A stretch of DNA of 32,539 bases from a virus. This document shows, one piece after another, positions 2,025 through 19,266 of this stretch. Below the pieces are notes generated by a model. It saw only the letters and a program-made list of their open reading frames with translations, was not told the DNA's origin and did not search any database. The stretch's first letter is position 1, and every line of letters begins with the position of its first letter. Both the position numbers and the translations under genes were made by a program. The DNA is taken from positions 1 to 32,539 of IMG/VR virus record IMGVR_UViG_3300004457_000003, one strand, 5' to 3'.

Positions 2025-3163
2025 CGTGACTGGGTTTTATAAGCGGTGCCGAAATTTAAGTCGATGCCGAGGCTTTTTGTGCCATCCACTATATGTTCGC
2101 ATTGTTCATAATTAGTCGCAGCCATTACGACTGGATATAACACCTCGCTATCTTCCAGGTATACAAGCGGGCTGGTAACCAGTTGGGCCAGCCATTGAAA
2201 ATCCGTGTCGCTCAATAGGTCAGTGTATATCCTTAATTTTTCTTTAAACTTGATGGCAAAGCTGGTTTGCTGTTCGTGCATGATACTGCCGGTCTTAAAC
2301 GTAACGGTACCGGAACCGTCCACACGATAGCCGGCCTGCTGATAGTCTTTTCTCTCGATGTCAAAAGTTTTTTTCCGCGCCTTATTAAATAACATCGTTT
2401 CAAATCCGCCGTACTTATTAAGAAAATGTACGGGGTAATTCGTGTAATTACCAGTGCAGATTATCCGCACGGTGTACGTAACACCGCCGACCGCTACCGT
2501 ATAACCTGTTGATGCGCTCGTAAAGTTTCCCGAGTAATCCGTATTAATTGCGCCCGGTGAAATATTAAGCACCTGCAAAGTATTGGCCGCCGTTGGTGTT
2601 ATTGTCTTTGTTCGTGTGGCTGTGCCGCCGGTTATTACTACGGTAAACGGCGTAGTGGTGGCGCTGAAGTATGGCAAATAAAAATTATTGTTCGTGAATA
2701 ACAAATCAAACGTAGTGTCGCGGACCGTCAGCGGCTTTGCCGTCAGGCTGGATATTGCGCTGGTTCCTGCGGTCCTGCCGTTATAATGATTGAAATATAC
2801 GCGGGGTGAATCGGTATGTACCACGGCACCCAATGTGCCGCCGTATTCTTCGCGCAATTTTACTACCACGGAAACAGAAAACGCACCCTCGCCAAGCTCC
2901 TGCGCTAATATCCCGCTGCCGGTCGGGGCCAGCGAGGCCGCAACATAACCCCTAACAATATTACCGATATCAAAAATACCGTAACCAGTAGCAGGATTCG
3001 GCATTACTTTGCCGGTAAATTCAAGCGTACCGTTGATATACACTTCATATACGTACTTGTAATTTACATAAGTAACCGGGTCGGCGGCGTGCGCATCGGA
3101 GGCTGTATAAACGAGCGCATCATTTACGCTGCTATATGCTGCCGGGGTGGCTGATAGTGTCAT
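2021..3163 (-). CDS. Distal tail-like protein
   Basis: A beta-rich, Thr/Gly-rich protein of 380 residues with few charged stretches until the C-terminal 130 residues. These contain a pattern I associate with Bacteroidetes phage tail proteins: a PVHFLNKYGGFE segment, a basic KARKKTFDIERKDY segment, then a LLSDTDFQWLAQL helix. It sits between a small tail gene and the large tail-tip gene, with which it overlaps by four bases (ATGA), so the two are translationally coupled. This is the position expected of a distal tail (Dit-like) or baseplate hub component linking the tail tube to the tip. No enzyme motif is visible. The family assignment is by resemblance and context only. Confidence 0.6.
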   Translation of the reverse strand: MTLSATPAAYSSVNDALVYTASDAHAADPVTYVNYKYVYEVYINGTLEFTGKVMPNPATGYGIFDIGNIVRGYVAASLAPTGSGILAQELGEGAFSVSVVVKLREEYGGTLGAVVHTDSPRVYFNHYNGRTAGTSAISSLTAKPLTVRDTTFDLLFTNNNFYLPYFSATTTPFTVVITGGTATRTKTITPTAANTLQVLNISPGAINTDYSGNFTSASTGYTVAVGGVTYTVRIICTGNYTNYPVHFLNKYGGFETMLFNKARKKTFDIERKDYQQAGYRVDGSGTVTFKTGSIMHEQQTSFAIKFKEKLRIYTDLLSDTDFQWLAQLVTSPLVYLEDSEVLYPVVMAATNYEQCEHIVDGTKSLGIDLNFGTAYKTQSR

Positions 3164-7160: not shown

Positions 7161-7523
7161 TTAGTAATAAGTTTTCAAATTTTCATCAATTATTTTTTTA
7201 GCATCTTCGAACCCGTAGGCAATTTGGCATTTTATACCCCGGCTGGCCCATAGGTCAGAAATGGCGGCTTGTTTTTCCGATTGCACGCCGTTTACCGTTT
7301 TCAACTCCAGGAACCAAATTTGGGGCCTTAAAACGCCATTTACGGCGTGGAGCAAAAAAAGGAAATCCGGCACACCGGCCAATACACCCATTGCGAATAG
7401 TTGCATCCTGTGGCGGTCGGAGGTTGGGGCCTCGTTGGGGATGTGGAAATACATGCGGCGGAGCGCTGGGTAGTTTTGATTCACATACCTGTGAACGGCG
7501 GCTGTAAGTTGGTTTTCTGTCAT
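7161..7523 (-). CDS. VRR-NUC family nuclease
   Basis: A 120-residue stand-alone VRR-NUC domain of the PD-(D/E)XK nuclease fold. Visible motifs are HIPNEA (28-32), GVLAGVPDF with the catalytic Asp at 53, FLELKT with the Glu73-x-Lys75 pair, and the following Gln85 in QSEKQ. Length is typical of phage single-domain members, which are structure-specific nucleases acting on DNA junctions or flaps. It starts 430 bases downstream of the primase-helicase across the AT-rich gap, and ends 10 bases before the sigma-like gene. A role in resolving replication or recombination intermediates before packaging is inferred. Confidence 0.88.
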   Translation of the reverse strand: MTENQLTAAVHRYVNQNYPALRRMYFHIPNEAPTSDRHRMQLFAMGVLAGVPDFLFLLHAVNGVLRPQIWFLELKTVNGVQSEKQAAISDLWASRGIKCQIAYGFEDAKKIIDENLKTYY

Positions 7524-7956
7524 GGTTGATATTTTGGTTATTACCTCAATTACTCCATTTTTGATATTTTCCTATTAATATTTAGAAAATAAAAAAACAT
7601 TTTATAAATATTAGAGTTTGCAATATTACATACTACTACTAATAATAATAACTATATGTAATTAATAGAAAAAAATAAAGTAATAAAGTAATATTAATAT
7701 AATTATTTAATAATCAATAGTTTATAATTACTTTATTATTACTCCATTATAAAAATAGTATTAAAATAAGGTAATTTATTACCCCATTTTACCCTTTTGG
7801 TATATACTATTTTTATAATATGACTTAACATTTTATTAACTTATTATATTAATAAAAATATCTTATTAGAAATTTTCTAAAGTATATAAAAAAATCTAAT
7901 ATATTTTTAGGCTGATATATAACTTTTCTTTAATACATTTTAAAAAAATGGAGTAA
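7524..7956. other. AT-rich non-coding region with repeated ATTACYCCATT motif, candidate origin
   Basis: The only gene-free stretch over 300 bases. It is extremely AT-rich: only 21 G/C in the 180 bases from 7561 to 7740. An 11-base motif ATTACTCCATT occurs at 7549-7559 and 7738-7748, once inverted at 7947-7957 touching the stop of the primase gene, and with one mismatch (ATTACCCCATT) at 7778-7788. Next to the last is the palindrome GGTAATTTATTACC. Low-melting DNA, iteron-like repeats and adjacency to the primase-helicase fit a replication origin. A promoter or regulator region for the packaging genes is the alternative. No ORF, tRNA or clear terminator is seen. Confidence 0.55.
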
Positions 7957-10404
7957 TTAGAACGGTATATTTTCAGAGATAAAAACTTTTCCGCGCCCTG
8001 TATTGGCAGAAATTACCTTATTAAAATCCACAAAAACTTTCTCTTTTTTGGCCCATTCGGCCACCGCTTTTGCCAGTTTTTTACTGCTCGGCTGGTAGTG
8101 CTTTGGGATGCTATTATCGTTGTACCAGGTCTCAATCAGCCGCTTCCATTCCTCATTACTAACCTCACCCATCCGGCACCAGGTTTCCCATAATTCTTCT
8201 ATAAGGTCGCTAATAGTGTTACCGTAGGTCTGCCGAAACTGCTTTATCCATCCACCCTCAGACAAGCCGCGGCGGCTAAGCTTCAGGCCGGATGCCAACC
8301 ATTTTTGAACCCCGGCGGCGATAACCGTGTCGTAATTATTCCAATCTTCATCGGCCCAGCCGCGGGGAAAATGGCAGCCGAAGTGTACATCTATGCCGCC
8401 GCAAAGGGTAAAGAAGTTGGTAAATTCAATCGGTATAATACGGCGGCGCAAACCCCCGTCCGATACCTCGTAGCTGTAGTTTGTTTGTATCAGGAACTTT
8501 GGCATCTCAGCCATCGCCACGGTGGCTTCATCCTTAAAAAGCTTTTTGATTATAGCATCGTTTGAGGCCATATCTTTAAGGAACATGAACTCAAAGTTTT
8601 TCGGCACATCAGATAGGCAGAACACGCGCTCAAAGTTCCAAGACTGGAGGAACTTTTCGTCATACTTAACCTGAGCGCCTGGCTTGTTGCAAAGCGTGGT
8701 GGTGTGCTTCAGTAGGTTGCAGAAAACATTTTTACCCGACCCGCCGCCGTCCTCGGGGTTTTCGCAGGCTTCTACCAGGACAACGATATAGGCCGTTGTT
8801 TCGTCCTTATATTCATGGGCAAGGTAACCAATAGCCCGTTCCACATCTGGGCCGTAATCAGTGGCGAGGCGCAGGAAGTCGCTATATTTACCCTCGGCCC
8901 GGGGTTCGTAATTGCGGGGCTGGATTTTTTCGGCCCAAATCAGTTGGCTGATAGCCTCGTAAGGCACCAGCTCCGCGCCCTCGGCGGTAATGATTAAGAC
9001 CCCGTTGGAAAAACATTTGTAACAGACTTTTGGCGTATCGGTCAGAGTGCTATCCGGGGAAAGTACCGGTAGAAACCGAATAACGTGCTTATGGTGCTCT
9101 TCAAAAAACTTATCAAAGCTATTAACGATAGCACGGTACTGGTAGGCTTCCTCTTCCTTAATGTAGTCTTTTAATAGGTCATAGAACTGGCGGACGGTTT
9201 TACGGGTTATAATGCCGTCCGTAATCAGGCAGATGTCGCCGCGCCCGTCAATCTTGAATCCCATATTGCCAGCCACGGTGTAGAGTAGTTCACGGTCTAT
9301 AATAACCTTGCCTTCCTCGTCAATTTCCCAAAACAGGCCGTAGGGATGCAGGTCAGTTAGCTGCGCCTTAAGGATGGCGTGTTCTGTTGCCCCCGCCGGG
9401 CTGATATTCGCCGGCAGTTCCCGACCGTTCACCGCTGCTTTTTTTATCAGTCGTTTTTCAACTTCAGGCTTTATCCGGCCAAAGCCCGCCCCGATAAGGT
9501 ATTTAAAAGTATCTTTGTGGTCCCCATTGTATTTAAGTATCGATAGTACCGTTGCGGGATTATACCCACGGTCATTCTCAAGGGCTGTGCTGCTGGTAAA
9601 TATATAGAAGCAATGCTTTTCTTTGTTAAATGATGCACCGATCCTGTTGCGCTCTGTTTGATTCGGGCGCTCGTAGTAGGCAAACAGGGTAGTTTCCTTT
9701 AAAAAAGTCCAGCCCATTTCGGCAAGCACGTTTGCACCCTCGGCGCTGCCGTTGTAGTGTTCAAATGGGTTTTCTGAATACATCGTGTCCACGGCTTTAC
9801 TACCCGTGGCCTGCCGTGGTGCCTGTTGTTGTTTTTCACTGAACCCCTCGCAGATAGCGAACAGGGAGCAGCGCTCAGCCCATGTTATTACCGGGATAGG
9901 GTTTTCTAAGAAAACGGAATAACCAGCCGCCGGCGGTGCCAGCACATAGCCGCCCTCGCCGCGTGTTTCGATGGCTGCGCCCTTAGTTTCGGCTTTAAAA
10001 CAAAGTTTCGCATTGCCACCAGGCGCATGGTTTTCTATGCGGTAAATAATATGATACCCGCCGGAAGGGCTTTTATGAATCCTGAGCCGCGCCCAAAGTT
10101 CCGGGTAAAGCGTTTGTATGGCTTGGAATAGCAGGGCATCAATACCGTACCAGTTTTTTACATCAATGTCAATTACTTCGAGGTTGCCGGATACTGCCCC
10201 CGCGATAATAGCCAGCGCATGGGTGCCGCTTGTTTCAATGGCGGTGTAAAGGTCTGACTTGCTTATAATTTCGGACTGGTAACGTTTCCATGCGTGAATG
10301 GCTGGGCGTTTTGCCTGCTCCCCGGAATCATACACCGGAATGATAGATACGCCGGCGGCTAAGTAGTTTTCAGCCTGCTGCCAGGCGGTTTGGTTATTGC
10401 TCAT
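7957..10404 (-). CDS. Prim-Pol / superfamily 3 helicase replication protein
   Basis: An 815-residue fusion of primase-polymerase and helicase. The N-terminal Prim-Pol domain has the catalytic DxD in LEVIDIDVK (D79, D81), the SGGYH motif (H118) and a RGEGGYVLAPP motif near 148-158. The C-terminal helicase resembles the SF3/D5 type: Walker A GGGSGKN (552-558), a VFCLSDVP strand, sensor IQTNY (638-642) and arginine-finger region LRRRIIPIEF (651-660). One protein could therefore prime and unwind phage DNA. It follows the SF2 helicase gene by 13 bases. Its stop abuts the AT-rich candidate origin, which suggests that it acts there. Confidence 0.85.
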   Translation of the reverse strand: MSNNQTAWQQAENYLAAGVSIIPVYDSGEQAKRPAIHAWKRYQSEIISKSDLYTAIETSGTHALAIIAGAVSGNLEVIDIDVKNWYGIDALLFQAIQTLYPELWARLRIHKSPSGGYHIIYRIENHAPGGNAKLCFKAETKGAAIETRGEGGYVLAPPAAGYSVFLENPIPVITWAERCSLFAICEGFSEKQQQAPRQATGSKAVDTMYSENPFEHYNGSAEGANVLAEMGWTFLKETTLFAYYERPNQTERNRIGASFNKEKHCFYIFTSSTALENDRGYNPATVLSILKYNGDHKDTFKYLIGAGFGRIKPEVEKRLIKKAAVNGRELPANISPAGATEHAILKAQLTDLHPYGLFWEIDEEGKVIIDRELLYTVAGNMGFKIDGRGDICLITDGIITRKTVRQFYDLLKDYIKEEEAYQYRAIVNSFDKFFEEHHKHVIRFLPVLSPDSTLTDTPKVCYKCFSNGVLIITAEGAELVPYEAISQLIWAEKIQPRNYEPRAEGKYSDFLRLATDYGPDVERAIGYLAHEYKDETTAYIVVLVEACENPEDGGGSGKNVFCNLLKHTTTLCNKPGAQVKYDEKFLQSWNFERVFCLSDVPKNFEFMFLKDMASNDAIIKKLFKDEATVAMAEMPKFLIQTNYSYEVSDGGLRRRIIPIEFTNFFTLCGGIDVHFGCHFPRGWADEDWNNYDTVIAAGVQKWLASGLKLSRRGLSEGGWIKQFRQTYGNTISDLIEELWETWCRMGEVSNEEWKRLIETWYNDNSIPKHYQPSSKKLAKAVAEWAKKEKVFVDFNKVISANTGRGKVFISENIPF

Positions 10405-16617: not shown

Positions 16618-16630
16618 TGTAGCCCTTGCT

Positions 16631-16685
16631 CATAACGTTCCGCTGCTTTGTGTCAGGTGGGGAATTAGAACCACAAATTTTCAAT
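16631..16685 (+). repeat. Possible attC-like half site
   Basis: The sequence CATAACGTTCCGCTGCTTTG resembles the left arm of the palindrome at 18629 (TATAACGGTTTGTGGCTTGG), but no matching right arm ending in GTTATG is present, only a GTGG/CCAC hairpin. It lies at the left boundary of the AT-rich cargo. Confidence 0.25.
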
Positions 16686-16697
16686 TAAGCACTAAAG

Positions 16698-17027
16698 ATG
16701 ATAGAAGAAAAAATGCTCAATAAACCACTAAAAACCCACTTGCCAAACTTACTGGCTAAGTATAACGAGTGCTGCGACAACAATAACTTTGATTGGTTCC
16801 TTGACAAAGGATTTGATATGGGTGATTTTGTTTGGACTGATTGTAACGGTTGCAGCACTGGATTACTTGTAGATAATGATGGGACAGGTCGCATCAATGA
16901 AGATGGCGAATATAACACTACCTATTGCTTAAGGCTTTCTGAAATTGGCGAAAAAGAGGCTAACTGCATGATTAATTCAGGCGATTGTACTCAAGATCTT
17001 ATTGAGTTTATTAATGAAACCAAATGA
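16698..17027 (+). CDS. 109-aa cargo protein, unknown
   Basis: A 109-residue acidic soluble protein (many Asp/Asn/Glu) starting at the ATG at 16698. Six cysteines are spread through it (NECCDNN, TDCNGCSTG, YCLRL, NCMINSGDC), an unusually high count for a cytoplasmic protein of this size and possibly metal-linked. The central GDFVWTDCNGCSTGLLVDND segment reads like a small beta domain. AT-rich, first full gene of the cargo block. Its stop overlaps the start of a 27-residue hydrophobic peptide (ATGA), suggesting a functional pair. Family not recognised. Confidence 0.6.
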   Translation: MIEEKMLNKPLKTHLPNLLAKYNECCDNNNFDWFLDKGFDMGDFVWTDCNGCSTGLLVDNDGTGRINEDGEYNTTYCLRLSEIGEKEANCMINSGDCTQDLIEFINETK

Positions 17028-17367: not shown

Positions 17368-18060
17368 ATGAAAATAACTAAAAACTTAATCATTACTAAA
17401 GAAAATCAGAATGATTATAAGAAACTAACAGAATGTAATTATTTACGTATTGAATCAGGGGCAAAACTCGATGCACCTGTCCTGACTACTACGGGCTACA
17501 TTGATTTGAGTGAAAATGCAAAACTCGATGCACCTGTCCTGACTACTACGGGCTACATTGATTTGAGAGAAAATGCAAAAATCTTATGTAAACTAACCAA
17601 TAACCTTAAATATCGTTCCATAGACCATAAAATGTTCGTAGTTGAGGCAAAAAAAACAACAAAAGGAATTAAGATATATTCAGGGTATAACCTAAATAAT
17701 ATCGAAAATAAAAAGCTAATAAAAGAAAATGCCTATGTAGCTGGAAAGGATGGTTTCTTTGCTCATGGTGAAACTATAAAGAAAGCTATTTCAGATGTTC
17801 AGTTTAAAATAATGGCTGAGAAACTAAAAAGCGAACCAATTAAAGAAGATACTATCATAACAGTAAAACATTATAGATTAATTACAGGTGCTTGTCAAGT
17901 AGGTGTGGATAGTTGGATGAAACAAGTATTTAATGAAAAAGAACAGGCTAAGATATTGGATAAAGGGATTAAGGCAAAAGAATTGTTGCCTATCCTAACC
18001 AAACATAATGCCTATGGTATTGACCGTTTTAAATCCTTAATTACTTTTATTACAGGCTAA
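17368..18060 (+). CDS. Repeat (solenoid-like) N-terminus plus conserved phage C-terminal domain
   Basis: A 230-residue protein. Residues 32-69 hold two near-identical 19-residue units, AKLDAPVLTTTGYIDLSEN and the same with REN, as in beta-solenoid or leucine-rich-like phage accessory proteins. The C-terminal ~110 residues read as a separate domain with DGFFAHGETIKKAISDVQFK, then HYRLITGACQVGV and ELLPILTKHNAYG, a pattern I associate with uncharacterised Bacteroidetes phage proteins. At DNA level the units are a 57-bp tandem duplication with one mismatch. After the stop an alternative frame remains open (18061-18172), hinting at a lost extension. Function unknown. Confidence 0.65.
   Translation: MKITKNLIITKENQNDYKKLTECNYLRIESGAKLDAPVLTTTGYIDLSENAKLDAPVLTTTGYIDLRENAKILCKLTNNLKYRSIDHKMFVVEAKKTTKGIKIYSGYNLNNIENKKLIKENAYVAGKDGFFAHGETIKKAISDVQFKIMAEKLKSEPIKEDTIITVKHYRLITGACQVGVDSWMKQVFNEKEQAKILDKGIKAKELLPILTKHNAYGIDRFKSLITFITG
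17461..17574 (+). repeat. 57-bp tandem duplication (two copies)
   Basis: Copies 17461-17517 and 17518-17574 differ by one base (gagtgaaaat versus gagagaaaat). Being a multiple of three, the unit preserves the frame and adds 19 residues per copy. The near-identity indicates recent duplication. Confidence 0.92.
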
Positions 18061-18371: not shown

Positions 18372-18623
18372 ATGACAACTGTTAAAGAATTAAGAGAATT
18401 ACTTGCAACAATGCCCGATGATTATGAAGTGGTTATTTATCCAAAATATTCCTCTAATAAAGTAGATGGGTATAAAAAACATAGATTTAGAATTGACCAA
18501 GTTTGTGAACAAAAACCTTACGCTGTTTCAATTAAGGATGATGTTGAAAAACTGAAAACTTATTTTGGTGGTAAAGAACATGAAGAATATGAGGTAACTA
18601 ACCACGTAGCTATTCTTTTTTAA
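18372..18623 (+). CDS. 83-aa small phage-type protein, immediately before attC-like site
   Basis: An 83-residue protein opening MTTVKELRELLATMPDDYEV, followed by VIYPKYSS and a C-terminal strand HVAILF. This start (a helix, then a short-hydrophobic strand after PDDYEVVI) recurs in many small phage and plasmid proteins of unknown role. Its stop codon is 5 bases before the left end of the attC-like palindrome, the spacing expected for the gene of an integron-type cassette. Soluble, no signal. Confidence 0.6.
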   Translation: MTTVKELRELLATMPDDYEVVIYPKYSSNKVDGYKKHRFRIDQVCEQKPYAVSIKDDVEKLKTYFGGKEHEEYEVTNHVAILF

Positions 18624-18628
18624 TTGTA

Positions 18629-18722
18629 TATAACGGTTTGTGGCTTGGCGAAGTACCGCCTTGCAGAATGTTAAAATTTAGTACAAAGGCTTGTGGCGGT
18701 ATTTTGCCAAACCACTGTTATA
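18629..18722. repeat. attC-like imperfect palindrome between two cargo genes
   Basis: A 94-nt imperfect palindrome. The outer 6-bp arms TATAAC/GTTATA correspond to integron R boxes. Then comes an asymmetric unpaired spacer (5 bases versus 1), GTGG/CCAC, one mismatch, and 16 continuous pairs including two G-T (TTGGCGAAGTACCGCC with GGCGGTATTTTGCCAA), with a 34-nt terminal loop. AAC at the left and GTT at the right, the size, and the position just after an ORF stop all fit an attC recombination site. A plain stable hairpin or other repeat family is the alternative. No integron integrase is present. Confidence 0.5.
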
Positions 18723-18726
18723 AGCC
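18717..18726 (+). repeat. Left 10-bp inverted repeat flanking the methyltransferase
   Basis: GTTATAAGCC, the right end of the attC-like palindrome, is the exact reverse complement of GGCTTATAAC at 19224-19233, 3 bases after the methyltransferase stop. Confidence 0.7.
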
Positions 18727-18764
18727 GTTTTTATTGGTTAGGCATAATTTTAATTTATAAACGA

Positions 18765-19220
18765 ATGGCATTAAGATTTAACAAAGTAATAGCGAACACA
18801 AGAGAAAGCGACCATTACTGCACACCGAAAGAGTTTTATGATAAAATGGATAAAGAGGTTGGATTTACTTTTGACCCATGCCCTTTAAGGTGCGAAACTT
18901 TCAACGGATTAGAAGTTGATTGGGAAGGAATAGTTTATGTAAACCCTCCTTATTCACACGTTGAAGTTTGGATTGAAAAAGGCATTGAAGAAATACGAAA
19001 AGGTAATGCTGAAAAAGTTTGTTATCTGATACCATTAAGAACTGATAGTTGGTATTGGCATAATAAGATACTTGCTTTTTCAAGTGAAGTAAGATTGGTT
19101 AGAGGTCGTTTAAGATTTGGAGATAAAAAAGATTTAGCACCTTTCGGAGTTGCTTTAATTGTCTTTGATAAAACTCTTTCGGGTCAGGCAAAATTATTGT
19201 CTTATGAGGCTCGGTCGTAA
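18765..19220 (+). CDS. Dam-type DNA N6-adenine methyltransferase
   Basis: A 151-residue enzyme of the phage DNA N6-adenine-methyltransferase family. The start at the ATG at 18765 gives MALRFNKVIANTRESDHYCT, which begins the family fold; an in-frame GTG upstream lies within the palindrome. Motifs: SDHYCTPKEFYD (substrate/AdoMet region), FDPCP (37-41), the catalytic NPPY at 60-63, and a late LRFGDKKDLAPFG segment. It probably methylates phage DNA at adenine to block host restriction or tune regulation. It is orphan: no restriction partner is next to it. Flanked by GTTATAAGCC and its inverse GGCTTATAAC. Confidence 0.85.
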   Translation: MALRFNKVIANTRESDHYCTPKEFYDKMDKEVGFTFDPCPLRCETFNGLEVDWEGIVYVNPPYSHVEVWIEKGIEEIRKGNAEKVCYLIPLRTDSWYWHNKILAFSSEVRLVRGRLRFGDKKDLAPFGVALIVFDKTLSGQAKLLSYEARS

Positions 19221-19223
19221 AAT

Positions 19224-19233
19224 GGCTTATAAC
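19224..19233 (-). repeat. Right 10-bp inverted repeat flanking the methyltransferase
   Basis: GGCTTATAAC, the exact inverse of 18717-18726, immediately follows the methyltransferase gene. It resembles the outer end of an attC-like site, but no further palindrome follows it. Confidence 0.7.
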
Positions 19234-19266
19234 TAAGAAATAAGCGAACAAGTAAAACAATAACCA

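Follow-up and report, generated by a model that had tools for sequence, protein, structure and literature searches.

A hairpin in a phage contig read as the recombination site of an integron-like gene cassette

The whole stretch of DNA analysed here, called the window, comprises the 32,539 nt of IMG/VR record IMGVR_UViG_3300004457_000003. It is a phage contig with genes for terminase, portal, helicase and primase, and its phage genes lie on the minus strand. The 94-nt imperfect palindrome under study sits in an AT-rich cargo region of the plus strand (about 16.6-20.0 kb), between a small ORF and a gene for a Dam methyltransferase (Table 1). The 83-aa product of the upstream ORF has no relatives among viral contigs. 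Farther upstream lies a decayed second site, which has lost its 3' GTTA and within whose loop ORF 16698-17027 begins. The window thus has two sites, of which only the one at 18629-18722 is intact, and an attI-like terminus with no integrase behind it; a search of the whole window for a tyrosine recombinase found none. Two repeats may also be mentioned: a 57-bp tandem duplication (17461-17574, 98% identical) in ORF 17368-18060, which yields two copies of a 19-aa repeat, and, in the Dam gene, an inverted repeat of 15 nt without mismatches, CCGAAAGAGTTTTAT (18825-18839 and 19168-19182, 328 nt apart).

Table 1. Features of the cargo region around the palindrome; R1 is the site model described in the text
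Feature	Coordinates	Strand	Basis
Putative end box TAGCCCTTGCTCATAAC of an older cassette, gene mostly lost	16620-16636	+	
Second, decayed hairpin site	16624-16762	+	R1 match, 52 bits, E 8e-9
Preceding small ORF, 83 aa, probably a remnant of an earlier cassette, without a hairpin in front	18372-18623	+	
Putative degenerate R''-like end box TTGTATATAAC of the preceding cassette	18624-18634	+	Family consensus
attC-like recombination hairpin, 5' end of the Dam cassette	18629-18722	+	R1 match 18622-18729, 89.7 bits, E 1.4e-16 (site is among the 55 from which R1 was built)
Predicted mobile unit, 599 bp: hairpin, GTTATAAGC, leader, dam and GCTTATAAC, bounded by TAAC on either side	18635-19233	+	Complementary boxes, L084/L090 boundaries, box rule
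R'-like box GTTATAAGCCGTTTT, cassette start	18717-18731	+	Box complementarity
Cassette gene, DNA N6-adenine methyltransferase (Dam, PF05869), 151 aa	18765-19220	+	
R''-like box AAAATGGCTTATAAC, cassette end, complementary to 18717-18731	19219-19233	+	Box complementarity
Putative attI-like terminus TAACTAAGAAATAAGCGAACAAG past the last cassette	19230-19252	+	Fits TAACTNNNNNATNNGCGNAA

Read directly from the letters, the palindrome agrees with its description in the earlier note: it starts 5 bases past the stop of the preceding ORF (TAA, 18621-18623), has the ends TATAAC (18629-18634) and GTTATA (18717-18722), an asymmetric spacer of 5 versus 1 nt and a GTGG/CCAC box, and its arms are separated by 34 nt. 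The two arms, GTGGCTTGGCGAAGTACCGCC (18640-18660) and GGCGGTATTTTGCCAAACCAC (18695-18715), are 21 nt each and 86% complementary; the remaining positions are the two G.T pairs already described for the inner stem and one C.A mismatch. As single-stranded DNA the palindrome folds with -18.7 kcal/mol (z = -4.1). Its opposite strand, the folding of which had been proposed as a check, is also stable, though less so than the gene-sense strand (-16.0 kcal/mol, z = -3.5). With these z values the hairpin is beyond chance. The boxes ATATAAC and GTTATAA fall outside the canonical attC R boxes (RYYYAAC and GTTRRRY), and the sole constant in the family is TAAC/GTTA. An Rfam search with the palindrome gave no match, a tRNA search at the same place gave none, and its exact long patterns have no second copy. 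BLAST against phages and plasmids gave mainly chance matches, with LR756502 as the exception.

Loosened patterns from the few first relatives were found in 77 viral contigs, versus only 21 contigs in a genome collection of 257 billion bases, and the family numbers hundreds of hairpin copies among phage contigs, with many others in genomes of Bacteroidota. The hairpins form sequence clusters, yet share a common frame, TAACG...(5-6 nt)...stem...loop...stem...(1-3 nt)...TGTTA. A covariation-supported alignment of 55 diverse sites, partly picked by the box rule described below, constitutes the model R1. Over these sites TAACG/TGTTA and one T-A pair are invariant, one G.T wobble is kept in 53, and compensatory changes on both sides are seen in 15 of the 22 pairs. 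The more stable strand is the gene-sense strand in 49 of the 55 (p = 2e-9). At E ≤ 1e-7, R1 detects sites in 128 of the 296 Bacteroidota genomes sampled, compared with 8 of 149 from the Spirochaetota, and such counts are lower bounds because R1 scores a hairpin type of about 66 nt weakly. This short type, with the loop TCGTTTTAATG, recurs in the arrays of L203, L174, L208, L005 and L115 and in Polaribacter phage P12002L.

Homologous hairpins precede many unrelated genes, and the type of hairpin goes with the downstream leader, which is conserved. The earlier note had suggested a search for the same palindrome followed by unrelated genes; the flanking genes do differ. It had also held that a constant gene pair, or resemblance to a REP/MITE family, would speak against an attC-like site; the outcome was the opposite, with differing genes and stems that vary with compensation. 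In L017-L093, leaders such as TGTGCTGGGCGGTTTATCAGCAC, lying directly past GTTA, fold into a second small hairpin (CCTGCTG...CAGTAGG), which shows compensatory change and is common to unrelated genes. Hairpins that share this frame but have long perfect stems (GCGGCTATAT...) are present in Spirochaete, Ignavibacteriales and archaeal MAG contigs (L107, L108 and L109), and these are possibly another branch.

The repeated unit consists of the hairpin, GTTANNNGC, a leader, one small gene and, past the stop of the gene, GCN'N'N'TAAC, which is the complement of the GTTANNNGC at the hairpin end. Of 111 neighbouring pairs, 83 have an R' box that over five bases is the complement of the next R'' box; shuffling gave a mean of 2.4 and a maximum of 9. 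The loci for this count were fetched via the integrase and not via the hairpin, and this integrase-first test is largely independent of the choice of R1 sites. By comparison, the two flanks of one and the same hairpin match in 2 of 130 cases. For last cassettes, the neighbouring box is the one in front of the attI-like site, and 15 of 21 agree with it. About a quarter of the neighbouring pairs violate the five-base rule, many of them through one terminal base. Median sizes are 281 bp for the cassettes and 88 aa for their ORFs, 39 of 101 of which start inside the hairpin. Among the matches listed, no two of 98 cassette proteins share a Pfam or PHROG family; the majority have no assigned function, and the others include a methyltransferase and exonucleases.

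The boundaries of the unit are seen in a pair of related loci, one filled and one empty. A 277-bp unit (hairpin, GTTAGCAGCC, gene, GGCTGCTAAC) is present in L090 exactly at TAAC, and L084 has the same flanks without it. In this unit the hairpin precedes the inserted gene, and so it is the downstream gene with which a hairpin moves. The earlier note had taken the site to follow an upstream cassette gene, as attC does, and this has to be reversed. The possibility that the hairpin is part of the upstream gene's cassette, which is the integron order, is ruled out by the same pair. A second presence/absence difference, between L203 and L207, is consistent with a cassette unit, and the pair L033/L047 is consistent with gain or loss of a cassette.

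By its R1 match and the complementary boxes round a single gene, the window site belongs to this family of hairpin-first cassettes. When the two boxes of its cassette are joined round the hairpin in silico, one long stem results (-25 kcal/mol, z -5.6). We read the palindrome, with a probability of about 0.88, as the site at which a mobile gene cassette of an integron-like system recombines in folded form. With no integrase in the window and a single intact site, the case for the window copy rests on family membership and the box pair. The earlier suggestion that part of the cargo arrived as gene cassettes is supported for the gene beside the hairpin by the box rule, the empty and filled pair and the hairpins before unrelated genes. 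The 599-bp cassette would plausibly have delivered a Dam-type methyltransferase and, with it, protection against host restriction.

In phages the sites are stacked into arrays, with up to 26 sites per record (in a 62-kb record) and nearly all on one strand. A tyrosine recombinase match is present in 9 of 44 array-bearing phage records, and in seven of the nine it lies 3' of the array and is codirectional with it. A search starting from the integrase found relatives in 138 viral contigs, many of them longer than 100 kb. Sites are present at 51 of 64 integrase loci and absent from the other 13, and about 250 of 253 sites at integrase loci are upstream of the integrase and on its strand. At nearly all phage loci, TAACTATTATATATA or a close variant lies about 35-60 nt before the integrase start, and the last cassette ends there. 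Judged on its sequence, TAACTATTATATATA is an attI-like site in these relatives of the window; L120 is a bacterial example of such a site. In L073, L067 and L071, attI-like termini (TAACTACCGTATAACCTTAAC and similar) have no integrase behind them and are possible secondary insertion sites. In the Bacteroidota, R1 sites lie within a few kb of a tyrosine recombinase (PF13495 and PF00589) on the same contig in about eight genomes, and in several genomes this recombinase stands at the 3' end of the array; the integrase adjoins the array, as judged by eye, in only about 8 of 15 assemblies, which are fragmented.

The earlier note had called such cassettes unusual in a phage with no integrase. The remark is true of the window contig, which has no integrase, but it misleads as to the family: phages hold such sites in large numbers, and in many relatives the array ends in an integrase gene. 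We read the window array either as a remnant without an integrase or as one that is mobilised passively; the Dam methyltransferase would be the last gene captured.

The array-linked recombinases match NF040815 (XerA/integron integrase), PF13495 and PF00589, and have the catalytic residues R...HxLRH...GH...Y. These family models and residues are common to the simple tyrosine recombinases XerA, XerC/D and IntI; the array-linked enzymes differ in being separate from IntI and from the host Xer proteins in the tree, in being tied to cassette arrays and, in the Bacteroidota forms, in having extra N-terminal modules. Against the IntI model TIGR02249, the array-adjacent integrases score 140-223 bits, under the cut-off of 265, and true Spirochaete IntI score 335-505. 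The matches of the array integrases to this model are split, with profile positions 183-236 missing. Compared with IntI4 (2A3V), the phage enzymes are about 43 residues short in the IntI-specific region, through which XerA and XerD align. In the tree, IntI forms its own clade and 21 of 22 phage enzymes form another, with the bacterial array enzymes placed between them without resolution. A Spirochaete IntI (L229) and the Bacteroidota array integrases (L127-L137) have an N-terminal W...W..P module with weak DUF5710/HARP-like matches; the module is absent in the phage enzymes.

The likeness to integrons and CALINs is extensive, consisting of single-gene cassettes in tandem arrays on one strand, hairpins with AAC/GTT ends, cassettes mostly of no known function and an attI-like insertion site beside a tyrosine recombinase. 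In the relatives this insertion site is recognised by sequence; in the window no integrase lies beside it. Complementary R'/R'' boxes on one cassette are likewise common to both, as found in the window (18717-18731 and 19219-19233) and in the 83 of 111 pairs. The differences concern the site, its place and the enzyme. Classical attC sites have two symmetric spacers with extrahelical bases. In the new family the two spacers are unequal (5-6 nt against 1 nt) and a G.T wobble is conserved; the hairpin stands 5' of its gene, often with the start codon within it, so that a gene is not followed by its own attC (L084/L090). The integrase is without the IntI-specific insert and in phages lies downstream of the array, codirectional with it. 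The definition of an integron requires an integrase with the IntI-specific additional domain (PMC9668308), which the array-linked recombinases do not possess.

It is improbable that the sites are canonical attC, with cassettes that came from a bacterial IntI integron and were stranded in the phage as a CALIN. The logic of R'/R'' boxes, hairpin and single-gene cassettes would be the same, and a site with the unit layout of the window, in phage P12002L, has been called attC and is active with IntI1 (PMC9892861). In the class 1 sites examined, however, the attC follows its gene, and here the hairpin goes with the downstream gene. Moreover, R1 matched none of the classical attC sites in five integron loci, even at E ≤ 1, and found no site beside ten Spirochaete IntI; the adjacent integrases, as described above, score below the IntI cut-off, are about 40 residues short and lie outside the IntI clade. 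A MAFFT alignment of eight class 1 attC sites was poor. In view of the integrase scores, the missing residues, the tree and the negative R1 result on classical attC, the system is filed as integron-like and not as an IntI integron. The proposed attC identity holds for the general kind of site, in that unrelated genes stand behind the hairpins, the R'/R'' rule applies and an empty and filled pair exists, but the site is not a canonical attC.

The study of Qi et al. (2023) described attC sites in phages, including Polaribacter phage P12002L, where they lie beside methyltransferase genes, and surveyed 10,705 genomes with classical attC models, describing 17 CALINs and 'divergent directions' (PMC9892861). 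P12002L has the same layout as the window, i.e., hairpin, GTTAGGCAC, methyltransferase gene and GTGCCTAAC, although our R1 search at E ≤ 0.001 did not recover it. Because P12002L displays the hairpin-first unit, that study, in which attC2 of this phage was active with IntI1, is the first evidence that such sites recombine and limits the novelty of the present findings; the hairpin-first unit and its integrase are absent from its description (PMC9892861). A literature search, with subscription papers and preprints outside its scope, gave no description of the hairpin-first layout or of the phage integrase; the sole overlap was PMC9892861, and prior publication is possible.

Transposition of single-stranded DNA by an IS200/IS605 (Y1 HUH) element, with units inserting 3' of TAAC and a sub-terminal hairpin, is very unlikely. 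The left-end hairpin, the short target motif TAAC and the strand polarity would all fit, but a Y1 transposase was detected in 0 of 44 phage records, in a search that detected its positive controls, and the array ends hold a tyrosine recombinase instead; full R'/R'' complementarity and ordered one-strand arrays leading to an attI-like site favour integrons. Hardly any weight can be given to a structured 5' untranslated RNA, or a terminator-antiterminator, that is not a recombination site. Such an RNA would account for hairpins directly 5' of genes with a conserved leader and for the ORF starts inside hairpins (39 of 101), and a missing Rfam match is to be expected of an undescribed RNA; what it leaves unexplained is the complementary box past the stop, the exact empty and filled site and the linkage to an integrase and an attI-like site. 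An additional role of the hairpin in expression may exist. Finally, a MITE/REP-type dispersed repeat, suggested by the clusters of near-identical hairpins in many contigs, can be dismissed, because the stems vary with compensation while the TAAC/GTTA ends and the spacing are fixed, and each unit encloses a gene between complementary boxes, a cassette rule that contradicts such a repeat.

For the integron-like cassette system, the following mechanism may be proposed. The integrase would excise the cassette in circular form, and the two boxes of the circle would close round the hairpin into one long stem. The folded single strand, presumably the better-folding gene-sense one, would then be recombined with an attI-like site or another hairpin at TAAC/GTTA, and single-stranded DNA linked to replication would be the source of substrate, as in integrons. 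We infer these excision and integration steps from the anatomy of the sites. Since the window contig has no integrase, either recombination in this phage would depend on an enzyme supplied by the host or by a co-infecting phage, or the array would now be immobile.

Apparently, the hairpins belong to a large and so far unrecognised family of integron-like cassettes, stacked into arrays by phages and their Bacteroidota hosts. A wider reading, which we put at somewhat less than even odds, is that a second cassette-recombination platform exists apart from IntI integrons, with a XerA-like recombinase, native to phages (jumbo phages included) and Bacteroidota and serving as a general exchange of small phage genes; on the same tentative reading, it has gone unseen because the attC and IntI search models fail to match it. 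IntegronFinder 2.0 found essentially one complete integron in the Bacteroidota (PMC9024848), and the presence of sites in 128 of 296 genomes of that phylum contrasts with this near-absence. If the interpretation as an integron-like system is right, phages have their own integron-like machinery, namely exchangeable single-gene arrays with their own integrase, and there is a concrete route by which genes, among them methyltransferases with the potential to counter restriction, would be shuffled from phage to phage as well as between phages and their hosts. R1, the box rule and the integrase would then be a search key to many phage genes of no known function, and the integrase and hairpin pair could serve as a new recombination tool. 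The question is also raised of whether the IntI-specific insert is really needed for recombination of folded sites.

Two minor observations concern the window and its relatives. In L006, positions 2960-3117 have 97% identity with codons 1-39 of the Dam gene in the window; this locus is a rearranged relative, with the 3' arm of the hairpin inverted and the remainder of the gene replaced. In the window itself, positions 7501-8100, between phage genes, have a GC content of 22%, far under the contig mean, and contain no clear gene.
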